Part shown: positions 10,672 through 59,370 of the stretch, one piece after another
Numbering within the stretch: position 1 is the stretch's first letter
Layout: each line of letters starts with the position of its first letter
Source: Burkholderia sp. GAS332
GTDB taxonomy: Bacteria; Pseudomonadota; Gammaproteobacteria; Burkholderiales; Burkholderiaceae
Reading direction: 5' to 3'
DNA: 64,000 nucleotides
Assembly: GCA_900142905.1 (NCBI GenBank)
Contig: FSRV01000002.1
Coordinates: forward strand, 2,046,001 to 2,110,000
Translations under genes and position numbers: made by a program
The notes under the pieces: generated by a model
The model's database searches: none
The model's input: the letters and a program-made list of their open reading frames with translations, nothing else
What the model was told of the DNA's origin: nothing

Positions 10672-10941
10672 CGGTGTTGTCCCGGTTTGGTGTGGGGCGC
10701 TGGGTGCTTAAGGGCTTCGCACTGCCGCGCGGCTTCGAAAGTTGATCATAGCTTCTTTTGTTGTCCGCCCAAGGTGTCAGCCTTCCTTGTTTTCGTAGTG
10801 GTCCGTGTTGGCCCCGTGTAGGTCGATACGCCACCGCACACGGCCACAACCATACTAAAACATTACGTTTTAATTCGATTTAATTTACAACCAAACAACC
10901 TTTAGTAGCAGTCCGTAAAATTTCAAATTACACATTAGCAA

Positions 10942-10997
10942 TATTGATACGAATCGTTCTCATTAGTGTTGACGCACCCATTTCGCATGCGTACGAT
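10942..10997 (+). promoter_or_regulatory. Fur-box-like site and sigma70 promoter of the iron operon
   Basis: Within the 437-bp gap 10672-11108 there is an AT-rich stretch with TTGATACGAATCGTTCTCA (10944-10962), which resembles the degenerate Fur box in its GATA and GTTCTCATT elements. Directly downstream are TTGACG (10969-10974) and TACGAT (10992-10997), spaced by exactly 17 bp. The Fur-like site abuts the -35 hexamer, so bound Fur would block RNA polymerase. The predicted message has a leader of about 105 nt before the porin ATG at 11109. The rest of the gap shows no gene. Confidence 0.6.
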
Positions 10998-11108
10998 CTC
11001 GCCATCTGCTGCATCTGGCGTCGCGAACCGATGCGGCAAATCGCAGACACACGGTAACGTCCCGCCGCGATGGTTTGATCAGTCGATACAACACAAATAA
11101 GGATTTCG

Positions 11109-12632
11109 ATGAAGTTCGCCCAATCAACTGAACCCGCCGGCCAGGCGCGTTCATTTCGCGACTCCGCCTCGCGCGTCGGCGCCATGCGCCGTTCGCGTGT
11201 GCCCTCGATGCGGCGTGCCGCGCTTTGCACGGCTTTCGCGTGGGCTTCGTTGACCGCCGGTGTGGCCATGGCCGACGCCAATCCCGATGCCACCCCCGAA
11301 GCGCCGGAAGCCGACCTGAACATCAAGGCAACCCAGACGGATCAGTGGACCGGCGTCTGGAACCGCGCGACGTTGCTCGGCGACATCGGCGGCCTGCGCC
11401 CGTGGCTCGGCAAATACGGCGTGACGTTCGCGCTCACCGAAACCAGTGAAGTGCTCGACAACCTGCGCGGCGGTCTGGCACGCGGCGCCGACTACGACGG
11501 CCTCACGACCGCGACTTTGCAGATGGATACGCAAAAGGCGTTCGGTTTGCCCGGTGGTCTGTTCAATGTCAGCGCCTTGCAGATCCACGGGGCGAACCTC
11601 AGCGCCAACAAGCTGGGCACGCTGAACACGGCGAGCGGCATCGAAGCCGATGACGCCACGCGCCTGTGGGAGCTGTGGTATCAGCAGTCGTTCCTGAACA
11701 AACGTGTCGACGTCAAAATCGGTCAGCAAAGTATCGACCAAGAATTCATCACCAGCTCGAATTCGGCGCTGTTCGTCAATACGATGTTCGGCTGGCCTGC
11801 CTTGCCGTCCTACGACATGCCGTCTGGTGGCCCCGCTTATCCGCTGTCCGACCTCGGCGTGCGTGTGCGTGGACAGATCACGCCTTCGTTGACCGCGCTT
11901 GCCGGCGTATTCGACGGCGACCCGCTCGGCAACAATCCGAACAACAAGAGCGGCACCAACTTCAACCTGCATAACGGCACGCTGTTCATCGGCGAGTTGC
12001 AGTACGCGATCAACCAGCCGGCCGACGGCGAAATGGTCGGTGCAGGTGGTGGCGGTCTGCCCGGCACCTACAAACTCGGTGTCTGGTACAACAACGGCAG
12101 CTTCGCCGATCAACGCTTCGACAACACCGGCCTTTCGCTGGCGAACCCGGCGAGCACTGGCGTCGCGCAGAATCATCACGGCGATTACAGCTTCTATGCG
12201 GTGGCCGACCAGATGGTCTGGCGCCCGGATCCGGACGAGCCGCGCAGCCTCAACGTCTTCGCGCGCGTGATGGGCGCACCGGGCGACCGCAACCTGGTGA
12301 GCGTCGCAGCCAACCTCGGCGTCGTCCTGAAAGCACCGTTCGCCGGCCGCGATAATGACAGCGCCGGCATCGCGCTGACGTACATCAAGATCGGCAACCA
12401 CACCAACGGTCTCGACCAGGACAACCTCGCATTCAGTGGCGGCCCGTACGGCGTGCGCACCAGCGAAACCACGCTCGAAGCGACCTACCAATACCAGGTC
12501 AACCCGTGGTGGCAGTTGCAAGCCGATGCGCAATACACGTTCAATGCCGGCGCCGGCCAGAACCCGAGCGACCCGACGCAACCGCTGCGCAACACGTTCG
12601 TCGTCGGCTTGCGGACCAACATTACGTTCTGA
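11109..12632 (+). CDS. Carbohydrate-selective porin, OprB family
   Basis: The 507-residue protein has a signal peptide with an unusually long basic N-region (hydrophobic core LCTAFAWASLTAGVAMA, residues about 38-55). An internal ATG at residue 26 would give a more normal signal. The mature part has the OprB features WNRATLLGDIGGLRPWLGKYGV and LYELWYQQ-like text (LWELWYQQSFL), then a beta-rich repeat structure ending NITF. The terminal phenylalanine marks a beta-barrel for BAM assembly. OprB-type porins pass sugars, but here the gene heads an iron operon behind a Fur-like promoter. Its role may be passage of a ferric chelate such as citrate across the outer membrane. That substrate is inference. 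Confidence 0.85.
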   Translation: MKFAQSTEPAGQARSFRDSASRVGAMRRSRVPSMRRAALCTAFAWASLTAGVAMADANPDATPEAPEADLNIKATQTDQWTGVWNRATLLGDIGGLRPWLGKYGVTFALTETSEVLDNLRGGLARGADYDGLTTATLQMDTQKAFGLPGGLFNVSALQIHGANLSANKLGTLNTASGIEADDATRLWELWYQQSFLNKRVDVKIGQQSIDQEFITSSNSALFVNTMFGWPALPSYDMPSGGPAYPLSDLGVRVRGQITPSLTALAGVFDGDPLGNNPNNKSGTNFNLHNGTLFIGELQYAINQPADGEMVGAGGGGLPGTYKLGVWYNNGSFADQRFDNTGLSLANPASTGVAQNHHGDYSFYAVADQMVWRPDPDEPRSLNVFARVMGAPGDRNLVSVAANLGVVLKAPFAGRDNDSAGIALTYIKIGNHTNGLDQDNLAFSGGPYGVRTSETTLEATYQYQVNPWWQLQADAQYTFNAGAGQNPSDPTQPLRNTFVVGLRTNITF

Positions 12633-12732
12633 TGCCGTTCGCCATCACCCCATACGCTCGAGACAAATCGAATCCCATGCTTTCGATCATGACCGCAACT
12701 ACCGCTTTGTGCGCAGGCACGGAGGCTCAATC

Positions 12733-13884
12733 ATGAACAATCCCACGCGCAAATTTTCGCCACGCGCCGCGCGGGCCCTGATCGCCGCCGCGGTCAGCAC
12801 GGCCGCATTCGCGACGGCCGGCCTCGCGCACGCTGAGCCGCAAGGTTTCCTCGAAACCGTCAAGCATCACACCACGCTGATCAACACCGTGCCGGATAAC
12901 GGCGATCAGAATCCGTACGCGGTCGTGGTCGCACCAGTCACGGCAGGCACCGTCAAGCAAGGCGACGTGCTGGTCGGCAACTTCAACAACTCGACCAATC
13001 TGCAAGGCACCGGCAGCACGATCATCAACTACCATCCGGACACCAAGCAGATGACGGTGTTCGCCACGGTGCCGCGCGATCTGAAGGAGTGCCCCGGCGG
13101 CATCGGCCTGTCGACCGCGATGACGATGCTCAAGTCGGGCTACGTGATCGTCGGCAGCACGCCGAGCAATGACGGTACGACCGGCACCAAGGGCGCCGGC
13201 TGTCTCATCGTGATCGATCCGAACGGCAAGGTTGCGTCGACCATCACCAGCCCGAACATCAACGATCCGTGGGGCAACATGGCGGTCGTCGATAACGGCA
13301 CGAGCGCGACGCTGTTCGTCAGCAATGCCGGCTTCGGCGTGGGCGGTGCGGACGGCAATCCGCCGGTGTTCAAGCAGGCTACCGTACTGCGTCTGGACCT
13401 CGACGTGCCGGCCGGCAAGCCGCCCGTCGTGAAGAAGGAAACCGTCATCGGCAGCGGCTTCGGCGCGCAGGCTGACAAGGGCGTGTTCCTCGTCGGTCCG
13501 ACCGGACTCGCGCTGTCGAGCGATCAGAAACTGCTGTACGTGTCCGATGCCATCGGCAACCGCATCACCGAAATCGATGAACCGATGACGCGCGACACCA
13601 GCGCCGGCGTGGGCCGTCAACTGACCGCCGACGGTCTGCTGCACCGCCCGCTCGCGTTGGTCACCGCGCCCAACGGCCACCTGCTCGTCACCAACGCGCT
13701 GAATGGCCAGATCGTGGAGATCGACCCCGCCAGCGGCAAGCAGATTTACGCTCGCTGGATCGACACCGACAAGGCACAATCGCCCCCTGGCAACGGCGAT
13801 CTGTTCGGCCTCGCGATGACGCCCGAAGGCGACGGTTTCTACTACGTACAGGACGACGTGAACACCCTGGTGCTCGCGAAGTAA
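12733..13884 (+). CDS. Secreted beta-propeller-like (NHL/SMP-30-like) protein of unknown function
   Basis: From the ATG at 12733 (GGAGG 8 nt upstream) this is a 383-residue protein with a clear Sec signal peptide ending AGLAHAEP. The mature part has repeated strand patterns such as NPYAVVVAP, GCLIVIDPNGK, GLALSSDQKLLYVSDAIGNRITEID and PNGHLLVTNALNGQIVEIDPASGKQ, at about 45-50-residue spacing. These resemble NHL or SMP-30-like propeller blades. One cysteine pair candidate is visible (ECPGG and GAGCLIV). There is no obvious heme or copper motif. It lies between the porin and the DyP peroxidase in the Fur-linked operon, so a periplasmic part in iron or heme handling is likely, but I do not know a described function for this family. 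Confidence 0.8.
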   Translation: MNNPTRKFSPRAARALIAAAVSTAAFATAGLAHAEPQGFLETVKHHTTLINTVPDNGDQNPYAVVVAPVTAGTVKQGDVLVGNFNNSTNLQGTGSTIINYHPDTKQMTVFATVPRDLKECPGGIGLSTAMTMLKSGYVIVGSTPSNDGTTGTKGAGCLIVIDPNGKVASTITSPNINDPWGNMAVVDNGTSATLFVSNAGFGVGGADGNPPVFKQATVLRLDLDVPAGKPPVVKKETVIGSGFGAQADKGVFLVGPTGLALSSDQKLLYVSDAIGNRITEIDEPMTRDTSAGVGRQLTADGLLHRPLALVTAPNGHLLVTNALNGQIVEIDPASGKQIYARWIDTDKAQSPPGNGDLFGLAMTPEGDGFYYVQDDVNTLVLAK

Positions 13885-13971
13885 ACGAAGAAGCACAGAC
13901 GGACGCAGATCCGGCCACCGAGCCGGACGCAACCCCGGCACCTCCCACGGCCAAAAGAAGGTGAAGTAACC

Positions 13972-15327
13972 ATGGCAAACGATCAACCCCCGCGGCCCTC
14001 ACGGCGCGGCTTTCTGAAGGCTGGCAGTGCGGCGGTCGCGGCGGGCGCAAGCCTCGGCGCGAGCGGCGTCGCCCAGGCCGCGCTCGGCAAGACGCCGACG
14101 CAAGCCGCCGATCCGACCATGGCGGTCGAGCCGTTCTACGGCCTGCATCAAGGCGGCATCGTCACGCCGCAGCAAAGCCACACGTATGTCGCCGCCCTCG
14201 ATCTCACGACCGAGAAACGCGATGACGTGATCGCCCTGCTGCGTGCCTGGACCGACGCTGCGGCCCGCATGACGCAAGGCAAGACGGCCGCGCCGTTGCC
14301 GCCGGCCGACGCGGCTAGTCCGGCTGATACGGCCAGCGCGGCTAACGCCAATGGCGCGTATGACGCAGCCAGCAATAAGGGCGCCCCGGATTCCGCCGAT
14401 GTGCTCGGCCTCGGCCCCTGCGGACTGACGATCACCTTCGGCTTCGGCCCGGGTCTCTTCACGAAGGACGGCAAGGACCGCTACGGGCTGGCCTCGCGCC
14501 GCCCCGCCGCGCTCGTCGATCTGCCGCGCTTTAACGGCGATCAGCTGATCGCCGAGAAAACCGGCGGCGACCTGTTCATTCAGGCCTGCGCGAACGATCA
14601 GCAGGTCGCGTTCCACGCGGTCCGGCAACTGTCGCGCCTCGCCAACGGCATAGCGACGATGCGCTGGGGCCAGTCCGGTTTCCTGTCGGGTCCGCGCGGG
14701 CAGACGCCGCGCAATCTGATGGGCTTCAAGGACGGCACCAACAACCCGTCGACCGCCAAGCCGCAGTTGATGAACGAGTTCATCTGGGCCGACGCCACCC
14801 CCGACGCGCCGTGGATGGCAGGCGGCACCTATACGGTGTTTCGCCGCATCCGCATCACGCTCGAACACTGGGACAACACCGAGGTCGGCTTTCAGGAACA
14901 GGTGTTCGGCCGTCACAAGTACAGCGGCGCGCCGATCGGCAAGAAGAACGAGTTCGATCCGGTGGACCTGAAGGAAGAAGACAAGGACGGCAATCCGGTG
15001 ATTCCGGAGAACTCGCACGTGCGTCTGTCGAATCAGGCGAGCAACAACGGCGCGCAGATTCTGCGCCGGTCGTACTCGTATAACGAAGGCACGAATTTCT
15101 ACATCGAGCGCTGGCCGCCGTGGCGCCAGGAAACCGAGTACGACGCGGGACTGATTTTCGTCGCTCACCAGAGCGACCCGCGCAAGGGCTTCATTCCGAT
15201 CAACGAAAAGCTCGCGAAGTTCGACATGATGAACCAGTTCACGACGCACGTCGGCAGCGCGGTGTTTGCCGTGCCGCCGGGGGCGAAGCCGGGTTCGTAT
15301 ATCGGCGCGGGATTGTTCGAGACGTAA
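13972..15327 (+). CDS. Tat-exported DyP-type heme peroxidase (EfeB-like)
   Basis: The 451-residue protein begins with a twin-arginine signal (SRRGFLK at 10-16, then an Ala/Gly-rich core to residue about 37). The DyP signature GFKDGTNNP puts the distal catalytic Asp at 254. The proximal heme ligand is His349 in ENSHVRL, and the distal arginine is in LRRSYSY (residues 364-370). A low-complexity Ala/Asp/Ser stretch near residues 108-140 interrupts the N-terminal ferredoxin-like domain and is not usual for the family. EfeB-type enzymes act in the periplasm with heme and are reported to take part in iron uptake. Here it precedes the ferric FbpABC genes, which supports an iron role over dye or lignin oxidation. 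Confidence 0.92.
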   Translation: MANDQPPRPSRRGFLKAGSAAVAAGASLGASGVAQAALGKTPTQAADPTMAVEPFYGLHQGGIVTPQQSHTYVAALDLTTEKRDDVIALLRAWTDAAARMTQGKTAAPLPPADAASPADTASAANANGAYDAASNKGAPDSADVLGLGPCGLTITFGFGPGLFTKDGKDRYGLASRRPAALVDLPRFNGDQLIAEKTGGDLFIQACANDQQVAFHAVRQLSRLANGIATMRWGQSGFLSGPRGQTPRNLMGFKDGTNNPSTAKPQLMNEFIWADATPDAPWMAGGTYTVFRRIRITLEHWDNTEVGFQEQVFGRHKYSGAPIGKKNEFDPVDLKEEDKDGNPVIPENSHVRLSNQASNNGAQILRRSYSYNEGTNFYIERWPPWRQETEYDAGLIFVAHQSDPRKGFIPINEKLAKFDMMNQFTTHVGSAVFAVPPGAKPGSYIGAGLFET

Positions 15328-15415
15328 TGCAAGCCGCGAAGCAGGCCGCCGGCACGCCATCAGGCGGGCGGCGGCCGATCGAAGACCAACAACATCACTA
15401 ACGGATTTTAGGATC

Positions 15416-16447
15416 ATGGCTCATTCCTGGTTTGGCACCCGCCTGCGCCTCCTCAGCAGCGCTGCCGCCCTCACGCTGGCGGCCGTCGTCACGGTGCCGT
15501 CGACGGCGCACGCTGCATCGATCACGCTGTACAGCGCGCAGCACGAGCAGGTGGTCAATCTGCTGGCTAAAGACTTCGAAAAAGAGTCGGGCATTTCGGT
15601 GAAGATCCGCAGCGGCGAAGGCCCGGCCATGGCCGCGCAACTCGTCGCGGAAGGCGCCGCCACGCCCGCTGACGTCTACTTCACGGAAAACTCGCCGGAA
15701 CTGATGTTGCTCGAAGAGAAAGGCCTGCTGACCAAAGTGGACAGCGCGACGCTCGCCACCGTGCCGGCACGCTTCAGCTCGCCGACGGGTGAATGGGTCG
15801 GCGTGACCGCACGCGAAAACGTGCTGGCCTACAACACGACCAAGCTGCAACCGTCGCAACTGCCGCAGTCGCTGTTCGATCTGGCCAAACCGGAATGGAA
15901 AGGCAAGGTCGGCATCGCACCGAGCGACGGCGACTTCCTGCCGCTGGTGAGCGCCGTGCTCGCCCTGAAGGGTGAAGCACAAACCGTCGCATGGCTGAAG
16001 GGCCTGAAAGCCAATTCGCAGATCTTCGACGACGACGAAGGCGTGGTGGCCGCCGTCAATCGTGGCGGCGTCGAGACCGGCCTGATCAACAACTACTACT
16101 GGGCGCGTCTGCACGCTGAAATCGGCGACGCGAAAACCCGCAGCGCGATCTATCACTTCGGCAACAGCGATGCCGGCGCGCTGGTGAACGTGTCGGGCGC
16201 GGCCGTGCTGAAGTCCGCGCACAACACCGACGGTGCGCAGAAGTTTCTCGCGTATCTGGTCAGCGACCGCGCACAGAAGCTGATGGCGAACAGCCACGTC
16301 ATGTTCGAATATCCGCTGCATGCAGGCGTTGCACCGGACCCGATCCTCAAGCCGTTCGGTGAACTGAACCCGCCGGCGCTGACGATCCAGCAACTCGGCG
16401 ACGACAGCCAGGCCGGCAAACTGCTGCGCCAGGCAGGCTTGCTGTAA
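15416..16447 (+). CDS. fbpA: Ferric iron ABC transporter periplasmic binding protein
   Basis: The 343-residue protein has a Sec signal (LTLAAVVTVPSTAHA) and then ASITLYSAQHEQVVNLLAKDFEK, the standard opening of FbpA/FutA-type ferric binding proteins. The adjacent tyrosines that coordinate Fe(III) are Tyr227 and Tyr228 in GLINNYYWAR. Another family hallmark is YTFTENSPELM-like text, here VYFTENSPELMLLEEKGLL. It binds ferric iron in the periplasm and hands it to the FbpB permease, whose ATG follows the TAA directly. The ATG at 15416 has GGATTTTAGG upstream and fits the signal peptide; the longer frame from 15266 is read-through of the spacer. Confidence 0.92.
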   Translation: MAHSWFGTRLRLLSSAAALTLAAVVTVPSTAHAASITLYSAQHEQVVNLLAKDFEKESGISVKIRSGEGPAMAAQLVAEGAATPADVYFTENSPELMLLEEKGLLTKVDSATLATVPARFSSPTGEWVGVTARENVLAYNTTKLQPSQLPQSLFDLAKPEWKGKVGIAPSDGDFLPLVSAVLALKGEAQTVAWLKGLKANSQIFDDDEGVVAAVNRGGVETGLINNYYWARLHAEIGDAKTRSAIYHFGNSDAGALVNVSGAAVLKSAHNTDGAQKFLAYLVSDRAQKLMANSHVMFEYPLHAGVAPDPILKPFGELNPPALTIQQLGDDSQAGKLLRQAGLL

Positions 16448-18052
16448 ATGAGCGAAGCCGTGTCAGCCGGGCCTCCGGCTGTAACCACCGCCCCGGCGCG
16501 CGCCCGTTCGCGCGCGCCGCGCGGTTTGTTCGCGGCAGCAGCACTCAGCGCTTTGCTGGTGTTGCTGCCGATTGCGTTTACCTTCTGGCGTGCAGCGAGT
16601 TTCGGTATCGGCGAGGCGGTCGATCTGATCTTCCGGCCGCTGGTCGGCGAACTGCTCGTCAACACGGTGCTGATCACCGTATCCACCACGGCCGTCTGCG
16701 CTGTGGTCGGCACCGCGGCCGCATGGTTTGTCGAACGCACGCATTTGCCGGGGCGCCGCATCTGGGCTGTGCTCACCGCCGCGCCGCTCGCCATGCCGGC
16801 CTTCATCTCGAGCTATGCCTGGGTGTCGCTGAGTCTGGATTTGCAGGACTTCAACGGCGCGCTGCTGGTGCTGAGCTCCGCGTATTTCCCGCTCGTCTAT
16901 CTGCCGGTGGCCGCCGCGTTGCGCAGCATGGACCCGGCGCTCGAAGAAAGCGCACGCGCGCTCGGCTGCAATCGCTGGAGCACCTTCATTCGCGTGGTGC
17001 TGCCGCAACTGCGGCCGGCGCTGCTCGGCGGCATGCTGCTGGTCGCGCTCGGCGTGCTGTCTGAATTCGGCGCGTTTACGCTGCTGCGCTTTCACACCTT
17101 CACCACGCAAATCTATGCGGAGTACCGCACCAGTTTCGACGGCGGCGGCGCTTCGCTGCTCGCGTGCCTGCTGATCGTGATCTGCCTCATCGTGCTGGCG
17201 TTCGAGTTTCGTGTGCGCGGCGCCGCGCGTTACGAACGCGTCGATCGCGGGACGCGTCGCGCGGTCTTGCGCTACGACCTCGGCGCATGGCGCTGGATCG
17301 TCGTCGCCGGCTTCGCCGCGCTGGCGATCGCGACGCTCGGCGTGCCGCTCGGCATGATCGGCTACTGGCTCACGCAACCCGGCGCGGCTGCTGTCACGCC
17401 GGCCGACGTGTCGCCCGAACTGCTGTTCAACGCAACGATCTCGTCGCTCGGTTTCGGGCTCGCCGCCGCGCTGCTGACCACGCTGCTGGTCGTGCCGCTC
17501 GCGTTCCTGCTGGTGCGCTATCCGACGCGTTTCGCGACGCTGTTCGAACGCACCGTGTTCCTGGCACAAGGCATACCGGGGCTGGTGATCGCGCTGGCCA
17601 TCGTGTCGCTTGCGGTGCACGCCCTGCAACCGCTTTATCAAAGCGCGACGCTGCTGGTGATCGCTTACGCGATGCTGTTCATGCCGGTAGCGCTGGTGAG
17701 TGTGCGCGCCGCCTTCATGCAGGCCCAGCCGCGCCTCGAAGAGACGGCCCGCGCACTCGGCCTGACCTGGTCTCAGACTCTGTTCCGCGTGGTGTTGCCG
17801 CTGGCGGGTCCTGGGCTTGGTGCGGCCGCGGCGATGGTGTTCATCTCGGTTGTCACCGAGTTGAATGCGACACTGCTGCTCTCCCCCATCGACACGCAAA
17901 CACTCGCGACCCAAGTCTGGGCCGACACGTCCACAATGGCATTCGCCGCCGCAGCGCCCTATGCGGCGCTGCTCACCGGCATTTCGCTATTCGCGTCCGG
18001 CCTCCTGTTCGCGTTGCTTGGCAAATCGGCGCTACTCGGCGAACGCAGCTGA
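16448..18052 (+). CDS. fbpB: Ferric iron ABC transporter permease (fused two-domain)
   Basis: The 534-residue protein contains two BPD_transp_1 permease domains in tandem and about twelve membrane segments, as usual for FbpB. Both halves carry an EAA loop: EESARALGCNRWSTFIRVVLPQLRPAL near residue 175 and EETARALGLTWSQTLFRVVLPLAGPG near residue 440. It forms the whole inner-membrane channel for Fe(III). Its ATG abuts the fbpA stop with no spacer, so translation is coupled. Confidence 0.92.
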   Translation: MSEAVSAGPPAVTTAPARARSRAPRGLFAAAALSALLVLLPIAFTFWRAASFGIGEAVDLIFRPLVGELLVNTVLITVSTTAVCAVVGTAAAWFVERTHLPGRRIWAVLTAAPLAMPAFISSYAWVSLSLDLQDFNGALLVLSSAYFPLVYLPVAAALRSMDPALEESARALGCNRWSTFIRVVLPQLRPALLGGMLLVALGVLSEFGAFTLLRFHTFTTQIYAEYRTSFDGGGASLLACLLIVICLIVLAFEFRVRGAARYERVDRGTRRAVLRYDLGAWRWIVVAGFAALAIATLGVPLGMIGYWLTQPGAAAVTPADVSPELLFNATISSLGFGLAAALLTTLLVVPLAFLLVRYPTRFATLFERTVFLAQGIPGLVIALAIVSLAVHALQPLYQSATLLVIAYAMLFMPVALVSVRAAFMQAQPRLEETARALGLTWSQTLFRVVLPLAGPGLGAAAAMVFISVVTELNATLLLSPIDTQTLATQVWADTSTMAFAAAAPYAALLTGISLFASGLLFALLGKSALLGERS

Positions 18053-18113
18053 ACGTCGCTGACTATCGCTGACTATCACTGACCATGCGCCCGCATTTTT
18101 CCATCGGATTTTC

Positions 18114-19172
18114 ATGAGCGAACTTCGTATCCGCGGACTGCAAAAATCGTTCGACGGCCATCCGGTGCTGCACGGCATCGACCTCTCCGTCGAGCGCGGC
18201 ACGCTGCTCGCGCTGCTCGGACCGTCCGGCAGCGGCAAGACCACCTTGCTGCGTCTGTTGTGCGGCTTCGAACGCGCGGATAACGGCAGCGTCGAAATCG
18301 ACGGCCGCCGGGTAGCCGGCGACGGCCTGCATATGCCGTCCGAACAGCGTCGCATCGGTTATGTGCCGCAGGAAGGCGCGCTGTTTCCGCATCTGTCGGT
18401 GGCGGACAACATCGTGTTCGGCTTGCCGCGCACGCAGCGGCGCGCACGTCATCGGGTGGCTGAATTGCTGGAGCTGGTCGGCTTGCCGGCGGATTTTGGC
18501 AGGCGCGCGCCGCAGCAGTTGTCCGGCGGTCAGCAGCAACGCGTGGCATTGGCTCGCGCACTCGCGCCGTCGCCCACTCTGGTGATGCTCGACGAGCCCT
18601 TCTCGTCGCTCGACGCCGCCTTGCGGCTCGAAACGCGGCAAGCGGTGGCAAGCGCGCTCGCCGCGACCGGCGCGACCGCCGTGCTGGTCACGCACGATCA
18701 ATCGGAAGCGCTGTCGCTCGGTCATGAGGTCGCGGTGCTGTGGAACGGCCGGCTGATTCAGACCGCGACGCCGGAGACGTTGTACCGCAGGCCGGTGACG
18801 CGTGAACTCGCGTCGTTCGTCGGTGAGGCCGTGTTGCTGCCGGGCACGGTCAGGCAGGACCGCGTGAGCTGCGAGCTCGGTGATTTGCGGTTGTGCGAGC
18901 CGATGGGCAATGGCGCGGTCGACGTCATGGTGCGGCCTGAACAGATCCGTCTACTGCGCGCTGAAGAGACGATGCCGAATGGCGCGGCGTCGTATGACGC
19001 CGTCGTGCAGGAGGTGATCTTTCAGGGGCAGGACGCAGGCGTCACGCTGCAATTGCAGTCGGGTGCGAGGACGGTGGTGCGCGCCCGGGTGCCCGGTTAT
19101 CTGTCGCCGCGACCGGGAGCACACGTGCGACTGGCGGTGGATGGCGAGGTGACGGCTTATCCGCGAGGTTGA
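18114..19172 (+). CDS. fbpC: Ferric iron ABC transporter ATP-binding protein
   Basis: The 352-residue ATPase has Walker A GPSGSGKTT at 36-44, the Q-loop in GYVPQEGALFPHLSV, signature LSGGQQQR, Walker B LVMLDEPFSSLDA and switch His in VLVTHDQSEALS. A C-terminal TOBE-type regulatory domain follows from about residue 240 (VDVMVRPEQIRLL), as in FbpC and PotA. It energises FbpB. The gene lies 61 bp after fbpB and is the last of the six-gene operon. No strong terminator hairpin is visible in the 115 bp before the convergent LysR gene. Confidence 0.92.
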   Translation: MSELRIRGLQKSFDGHPVLHGIDLSVERGTLLALLGPSGSGKTTLLRLLCGFERADNGSVEIDGRRVAGDGLHMPSEQRRIGYVPQEGALFPHLSVADNIVFGLPRTQRRARHRVAELLELVGLPADFGRRAPQQLSGGQQQRVALARALAPSPTLVMLDEPFSSLDAALRLETRQAVASALAATGATAVLVTHDQSEALSLGHEVAVLWNGRLIQTATPETLYRRPVTRELASFVGEAVLLPGTVRQDRVSCELGDLRLCEPMGNGAVDVMVRPEQIRLLRAEETMPNGAASYDAVVQEVIFQGQDAGVTLQLQSGARTVVRARVPGYLSPRPGAHVRLAVDGEVTAYPRG

Positions 19173-54036: not shown

Positions 54037-54051
54037 GGACATGCTGGGGAG

Positions 54052-54165
54052 CCTGACGATTACCTACTTTCACACGGGAATCCGCACTATCATCGGCGTG
54101 GAGTCGTTTCACGGTCCTGTTCGGGATGGGAAGGGGTGGGACCGACTCGCTATGGTCATCAGGCA
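54052..54165 (-). rRNA. rrf: 5S ribosomal RNA
   Basis: On the minus strand the gene starts TGCCTGATGACCATAGCGAG and contains CCCATCCCGAACAGG and the paired ends CCTGATGA/CGTCAGGC. It is the last gene of the rRNA operon. The 206-bp spacer to 23S has two hairpins, GTTTCGG/CCGAAAC at 54320-54353 and a CCCC-TTCG-GGGG stem near 54305-54317, likely RNA processing signals. Ends are set by eye to within a few bases. Confidence 0.95.
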
Positions 54166-54371
54166 TGACTTGTTGTCGTGTCGCCTTTGTGGGCGGCACA
54201 ACCAATCTGGAAGAAGTAGCTGAGAGGATGCCTCTCGTTTTGCACGTTCAATACGTGCGGGTTGTGTTGTTCGAGGCACAACACTGATCTCAACCTGTGT
54301 GCTGCCCCCTTCGGGGGTTGTTTCGGCTAAGCGCTAAAGCGCTAACCCGAAACGAAACACACTTGTTATAG

Positions 54372-57250
<2,879 letters not shown>

Positions 57251-57451
57251 CTATAACGAGTGTGTCTCTGCATGGTTCCGGAGAATCACGCTTCAACAGT
57301 CGCTACAGGTTGAGTATTCGTGTTGCGCCGTATTCCAAGGCAATCTTTCGATCACCTTTTCATACATTGATACAATCACAACCCTGATTCACCTACTCAA
57401 TCACCCATCTCTAAGTGATCTTTCGTGAATCTCTTTACTACTTCTTCCTGA

Positions 57452-57463
57452 TTGTTAAAGAAC
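57452..57463 (-). promoter_or_regulatory. boxA antitermination element in the 16S-23S spacer
   Basis: The minus strand reads GTTCTTTAACAA, a boxA core for the Nus antitermination complex, about 190 nt before the 23S 5' end. The 313-bp spacer 57251-57563 holds this element and sequences that pair with the 23S 3' flank, but no gene. Confidence 0.75.
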
Positions 57464-57563
57464 GACAGCCGATATCGCGGTTGCTATAACCGCGTATCAC
57501 TCTGACTGGCTCAATCGCCAATGCATAAAGCTCGGTTAGCACCGAACGCTAGGCATTGAAGAT

Positions 57564-57639
57564 TGGTGGAGGATGACGGGATCGAACCGACGACCCCCTG
57601 CTTGCAAAGCAGGTGCTCTCCCAGCTGAGCTAATCCCCC
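57564..57639 (-). tRNA. tRNA-Ala (anticodon TGC)
   Basis: The minus strand folds as a 76-nt tRNA including an encoded CCA end: acceptor GGGGGAT/ATCCTCC, D-arm AGCTCAGCTGGGAGAGC, anticodon loop TTTGCAA with TGC, and T-arm GGTTCGATCC. It is the second tRNA of the rrn spacer. Confidence 0.97.
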
Positions 57640-57697
57640 AGTCACACAAGTACTTCAGGGTGTCTTCGGTTGGTTAGTTCAGCCACCGCAGAAACAG

Positions 57698-57774
57698 TGG
57701 TGGGTCTGGATGGATTCGAACCATCGACCCCCGCCTTATCAAGACGGTGCTCTAACCAACTGAGCTACAGACCC
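57698..57774 (-). tRNA. tRNA-Ile (anticodon GAT)
   Basis: The minus strand folds as a 77-nt tRNA with encoded CCA: acceptor GGGTCTG/CAGACCC, anticodon loop TTGATAA with GAT, and T-arm GGTTCGAATCC. It is the first spacer tRNA after 16S, as in most proteobacterial rrn operons. Confidence 0.97.
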
Positions 57775-57838
57775 CTGAGTCTGTCCTGATTCACAGCCGA
57801 TAAGCGTGAGCGCTCAACGTTCGACACGTTAGCTCGAG

Positions 57839-59370
<1,532 letters not shown>

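Follow-up and report, generated by a model that had tools for sequence, protein, structure and literature searches.

The grouping of the peroxidase EfeB with EfeU and EfeO (EfeUOB) is an established system, in which the operon of an iron importer carries a Fur-like site and the gene for a Tat-exported EfeB-type DyP peroxidase. These features are shared by a run of six genes in the genome of the soil bacterium Burkholderia sp. GAS332, located in the 64,000-nucleotide stretch of contig FSRV01000002.1 analysed here (the window). The run, oprB-propeller-dyp-fbpA-fbpB-fbpC (11109-19172, all on the plus strand), codes for an OprB-family porin, a secreted beta-propeller protein, a DyP and an FbpABC-type ferric-iron importer. 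Unlike EfeUOB, it contains neither EfeU nor EfeO, and the DyPs of such porin-propeller-DyP triads group apart from the EfeU-linked ones. The best explanation, put forward tentatively, is a single Fur-repressed operon of two modules, in which a TonB-independent triad would feed FbpABC. To our knowledge, the TonB-free passage of unchelated or weakly chelated iron across the outer membrane of Gram-negative bacteria, the reason why EfeB peroxidases accompany iron importers and the function of Fur-controlled secreted propellers such as YncE are all poorly understood. A conserved unit of porin, propeller and EfeB-type DyP, with or without a given importer, opens all three questions to testing.

Like the described FbpABC/HitABC importers, that of the window comprises a binding protein close to HitA, a fused permease and an ATPase with a TOBE domain, but here the set is carried behind the triad. 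In Acidithiobacillus ferrooxidans the OprB-family porin FeoP (AFE2522) likewise shares an iron-regulated operon with an iron importer of the inner membrane, although this is FeoABC in place of Fbp, and neither a propeller nor a DyP is mentioned in the available part of the source (PMC2621215). The OprB-domain porin Slr1908 of Synechocystis has been implicated in iron entry, and an Fbp-like importer, Fut, occurs in the same organism; Slr1908 differs in its SLH domain, and the accessible text on it (PMC8707739) again mentions neither propeller nor DyP. By analogy with Slr1908/Fut and with feoP and feoABC, a route for inorganic iron through a porin and an Fbp-like importer would not be unprecedented. 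The window propeller resembles E. coli YncE, which is Fur-regulated, in being a Sec-exported beta-propeller with a predicted link to Fur; DNA binding has been reported for YncE, and a link to DyP is not mentioned in the part of the source available (PMC5120174). YncE, however, has seven blades and shares 11% identity with the window propeller. An unspecified DyP of B. multivorans (PMC3829912) and an encapsulated DyP (PMC6222749) are mentioned in the accessible portions of two further papers. Narrow searches of the open literature, with most subscription journals outside their scope, found no description of the triad or of the operon.

Conservation of the run and occurrence of the triad

With the propeller as query, 204 relatives were found in named genomes; the best 80 of them underlie all counts given for the window's family, the Burkholderiaceae. 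Gene order had been set beforehand, in the first-pass annotation of the window, as a check on which the proposed operon could fail; all six genes occur in the same order and on one strand in 80 of the 80 named loci, and no estimated gap exceeds 226 nt. The flanking lysR gene was matched in 54 of these loci, as was the flanking nat gene (54/80), and in 23 neither was matched with the six-gene order intact, suggesting that the block outlives its surroundings. Two of the 23 loci, L045 and L057, lie on short contig ends, which partly explains the absence of flank matches. Chance adjacency of the six genes is ruled out by an order kept in 80/80 loci amid changing flanks. L045 belongs to Candidatus Burkholderia crenata, in which all six genes were matched, in the same order, on an 8.4-kb contig; L009, where the operon is likewise present, is that of P. 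xenovorans LB400. The window's own genome was searched for a further copy of the unit, and only an OprB paralogue and a broken propeller relative turned up. The paralogue (64% identity; L138, 6847-9478, corresponding to about 9846-12480 of contig C2) is convergent with the distant propeller relative (35-38% identity, one stop codon inside), and no dyp match lies beside it. The pair has the look of a triad relative that has decayed or been rearranged.

Beyond the family, 300 genomes of the order were searched with DyP and the surroundings of 18 of the distant matches (L119-L136) were taken. The nine DyPs that are approximately 48-60% identical to that of the window (L119-L127) all have oprB and the propeller gene in front, while neither gene is found in front of any of the nine with 30-36% identity (L128-L136), six of which (L129-L134) adjoin an EfeU-type permease. 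A scan for the FTR1 motif REGxE, in which these six permeases were detected, found none beside the triads examined, the matches in L120-L122 falling inside the DyP itself; the scan is insensitive, having missed the FTR1 of L170 that Pfam finds. In the DyP tree, 19 triad DyPs fall on one side of a 100/100 branch and six EfeU-linked DyPs on the other. Pfam found no FTR1 (EfeU) among the six genes of the run, and EfeO (PF09375) was absent from the window's genome (0/1) in a search whose control was positive in 4/14. The genome's one FTR1 is encoded on contig C1 beside Fe2+ transport genes. A classical EfeUOB system is ruled out by the tree and by the lack of EfeU in the run and of EfeO in the genome search. 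The window DyP nevertheless passes the EfeB equivalog model TIGR01412 (447.6 bits, cut-off 428), and the earlier claim of an EfeB-type DyP occurring here without EfeU and EfeO is borne out.

A propeller profile was run against 399 genomes of the order, 13 with a match, and against 18 genomes from one further family. All 14 strong propeller places in the 13 genomes of the order lie beside oprB and dyp, and outside the family the order oprB-propeller-dyp is seen at every one of the 12 propeller loci, from 11 genomes (L119-L127, L154, L155 and, from the further-family search, L176), a contig end cutting oprB in L119 and L155. One more genome has its triad genes split across two contigs (L158 and L159). 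At 1e-30 the profile matched 13/399 genomes of the order, 2/2 and 6/18 of two further families, and only the window's own genome among those searched in the class (1/369) and in the phylum (1/200). When 274 genomes of the class were searched with a single propeller sequence, weak, incomplete matches turned up in five besides the window's own (best 4.9e-6), and named homologues exist, as proteins alone, in the alphaproteobacterial Stellaceae and Acetobacteraceae.

Outside the family FbpABC lies behind the triad in three loci only (L123, L124 and L125); the contig of L176 ends about 0.9 kb past dyp and is uninformative on FbpABC. Judged by gene content, the operon is made up of two modules, a triad core and FbpABC, and FbpABC is not obligate, because the triad occurs without it in other Burkholderiales. 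The first-pass annotation had treated DyP, propeller, porin and FbpABC as one set, which is constant within the family, but FbpABC is dispensable elsewhere.

The genes ahead of the triad also vary. Those for a bacterioferritin-associated ferredoxin (bfd) and a bacterioferritin (bfr) directly precede it in L120, hemP does so in L121 (PF10636, 65.3 bits), and a short hemP-like reading frame was seen in the sequence ahead of it in L122. One genome (G350) holds two triads, L120 behind bfd-bfr and L122 behind the hemP-like frame. The hemP genes, along with the match of DyP to the EfeB/deferrochelatase model, would fit extraction of heme iron, in which DyP strips iron from heme (a debated deferrochelatase activity) for import by FbpABC. 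We regard this as very improbable, as heme is unlikely to enter through a porin, no heme receptor is encoded in the run and the window operon is without hemP. Downstream of the triad, a CMD-domain protein is encoded in L126 (a weak match, 25.3 bits against a cut-off of 23), which would be compatible with peroxide defence, whereby a Fur-controlled DyP shields the periplasm from H2O2 during iron import and the porin and propeller serve the peroxidase. Scavenging of reactive oxygen has been ascribed to EfeB (Miethke 2013, cited in the accessible part of PMC13431127). Such a defensive role is nonetheless quite unlikely, leaving unexplained both the constant linkage to the porin and the presence of FbpABC in the run in 80/80 loci. 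An Nramp gene in L127 was considered as an importer partner; although it lies downstream and in the same direction, it is set apart from dyp by 248-281 nt with inverted repeats and is a weak lead only.

Promoter and Fur-like sites

The first-pass annotation had placed six plus-strand genes behind a Fur-like box abutting a well-spaced promoter; these genes, their identities and this arrangement are confirmed, the box GATACGAATCGTTCTCATT directly abutting a promoter with 17-bp spacing ahead of oprB. Nineteen leaders were aligned, that of the window and those of 18 hand-picked loci of the 80; the best-conserved block is made up of the 20 bases from 10949 (mean 0.91), with 0.75 for the -35 block, 0.79 for the -10 block and only 0.48-0.62 for the blocks at 10809-10928. 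The box is supported by its conservation in orthologous leaders and not by its consensus score; a box is conserved at the promoter and kept in orthologues, as in a Fur regulon, although it is weak against the classical consensus. A box/-35/-10 pattern matches 74 of 81 leaders, a descriptive figure, the pattern having been composed after the sites were seen. Near variants are held, by eye, in L018, L020, L041, L042 and L047, and the leaders of L005 and L045 begin near contig ends. In L005 the contig start, the first approximately 110 bases before the operon, holds AGATGTGTATAAGAGACAG, which we take to be a sequencing-library adapter, and the absence of the box from this leader is therefore probably an assembly artefact.

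A promoter scan gave two promoter-like sites against 1.7 expected by chance, and the leader promoter alone is not significant. Promoters inside the run had been named in the first-pass annotation as a further ground for failure; the scan, which finds no excess over shuffles, lists neither a promoter-like nor a terminator-like site in the five gaps between the six genes, although one promoter-like site lies inside oprB. Rfam at gathering scores found no known RNA in the operon leader. Boxes ahead of oprB beat mononucleotide shuffles in L126, L127, L137 and L154 (≤0.020), in a scoring that covered, of the outside-family loci, L120-L127 and L154. The box before bfd in L120 is borderline (0.075), and box-like sequences precede hemP in L121 and L122, by eye.

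The genome was scanned with a 19-mer chosen after the orthologous sites had been seen, with three or fewer mismatches allowed. GATACGAATCGTTCTCATT scores 16/19 to this 19-mer, the next best in the window scoring 13. Nine places were found genome-wide, one being the six-gene operon, and the reversed control gave none. Of the eight others, four are located at known iron genes, namely an ECF sigma/FecR pair, a cluster with genes for an Fe2+ transport protein, a cupredoxin and FTR1, a TonB receptor gene next to a PepSY gene, and a region with ferritin and tonB genes, the start of tonB being approximately 550 bp from the site. At L172 (about 2924; C2 194423) a Fur-like site occurs on both strands between nitroreductase and MFS genes; a phosphopantetheinyl transferase is encoded nearby and this is perhaps a siderophore locus.

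The propeller and a possible route for iron

The propeller has two invariant cysteines (positions 120 and 157) and a beta-propeller fold like that of SMP-30-type lactonases, with six blades predicted from its matches. Its score to the Pfam family SGL is 25.4 bits, under the cut-off of 26.3, and the label of SMP-30 lactonase was dropped for this reason. In a Foldseek comparison YncE (3vgz) appears at rank 5 with TM values of 0.49/0.58, a weak match at the 11% identity given above, and it is missing from the 50 matches listed in a further comparison; orthology to YncE was not adopted, the structural likeness being weak. The lactonase-like fold brings to mind chelate breakdown, in which the porin would admit sugar-acid, citrate or phenolic iron chelates, the propeller would bind or hydrolyse the ligand and DyP would oxidise it, setting iron free independently of the importer. 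This is unlikely, given the sub-threshold SGL score, a likeness of fold that is no proof of activity and a ligand that is only hypothetical.

In all 11 outside-family junctions read, the propeller stop and the dyp start share ATGA (once GTGA). Together with their unbroken linkage, this shared stop and start is the strongest hint that the propeller and DyP work together.

Returning to a two-module operon for iron acquisition, the Fur-like box, porin, periplasmic peroxidase and ferric importer fit such an operon, and the gene identities support the outer-to-inner-membrane layout, from porin to importer, of the first-pass annotation. The window DyP retains D254, H349 and R365, and D/H/R are kept in 80/80 named loci; FbpA has H44, E92, Y228 and Y229 (numbered from 15413), presumably the iron ligands, also kept in 80/80. 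As the triad persists without FbpABC, its task would precede import, getting iron as far as the periplasm and into a usable form, and with FbpABC behind it Fe3+ would be its natural product. We infer the porin cargo, DyP reaction and propeller role as follows. The run would be transcribed as one Fur-repressed operon, with a single transcript responding to iron. The OprB porin would pass small iron species, such as Fe2+ and weak ferric chelates, across the outer membrane without TonB. With H2O2, the periplasmic EfeB-type DyP would yield free Fe3+, by oxidation of Fe2+ or destruction of the ligand, and also remove peroxide during the conversion. For DyP the analogy is with Bacillus, in which EfeB oxidises Fe2+ on behalf of a ferric permease; this oxidation is reported for EfeB of B. 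subtilis (Miethke 2013, cited in the accessible part of PMC13431127). Made in lockstep with DyP, the propeller may partner it directly and would most likely hold an iron species or present it to the enzyme, and the release or oxidation of iron suggested earlier for the enzyme and propeller may proceed in this manner. FbpABC, the second module, would carry Fe3+ into the cell and appears exchangeable, other lineages keeping the triad without it. The triad is thus conceivably, though by no means securely, a portable TonB-independent module for iron circuits (with FbpABC, bfd-bfr, hemP or none), and the propeller a new periplasmic handler of iron or chelates partnering a peroxidase. If true, this gives a Fur-linked secreted propeller a testable role.

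Several observations weigh against this explanation. OprB porins are annotated as carbohydrate-selective. In the window the propeller and dyp genes are 87 nt apart with no overlap, and FbpA of L123-L125 has Ser in place of the Glu ligand. Against the classical E. coli Fur consensus GATACGAATCGTTCTCATT scores 11/19, with other 19-mers of the window better (best 13), and the second promoter-like site, of equal score (9/12), lies inside oprB (12327-12356). Boxes ahead of oprB are no better than shuffles in L120-L125 and L156. No iron gene was recognised beside four of the eight further genomic Fur-like sites, namely the nitroreductase/MFS locus, an MFS gene, a DUF1329 gene and a locus whose tested open reading frame has no Pfam match.

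Annotation of the run and other features

The coordinates of the run and its leader are given in Table 1, with start codons corrected for the propeller and fbpA genes (12733 and 15416). The intergenic gaps are, in order, 100, 87, 88, 0 and 61 nt. The OprB match is over the cut-off and full-length (profile 2-372 of 372), and among solved structures HitA is closest to FbpA (PDB match 1.9e-81).

Table 1. Genes and predicted regulatory elements of the six-gene run
Feature	Position	Strand	Basis
Fur-like box GATACGAATCGTTCTCATT	10946..10964	+	best-conserved leader block; predicted site
Promoter, -35 TTGACG, 17 nt, -10 TACGAT	10969..10997	+	promoter scan, leader alignment, pattern fit
oprB, OprB-family outer-membrane porin	11109..12632	+	PF04966, 330.8 bits
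propeller, secreted NHL/SMP-30-like beta-propeller	12733..13884	+	weak NHL/SGL matches
dyp, Tat-exported DyP peroxidase, EfeB type	13972..15327	+	TIGR01412 above cut-off; PDB relatives; residues
fbpA, FbpA/HitA-type ferric-iron-binding protein	15416..16447	+	HitA the best PDB match; residues
fbpB, FbpB-type fused two-domain permease	16448..18052	+	PF00528, two stretches
fbpC, FbpC-type ATPase with TOBE domain	18114..19172	+	PF00005, PF08402

In Paraburkholderia largidicola the depositors labelled the corresponding genes as carbohydrate porin, hypothetical protein, efeB and iron ABC transporter genes, with no system named. The downstream neighbour of fbpC is a LysR gene on the opposite strand. 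Elsewhere in the window, an rRNA operon with SSU, two tRNAs, LSU and 5S lies on the minus strand at 54051-59369.

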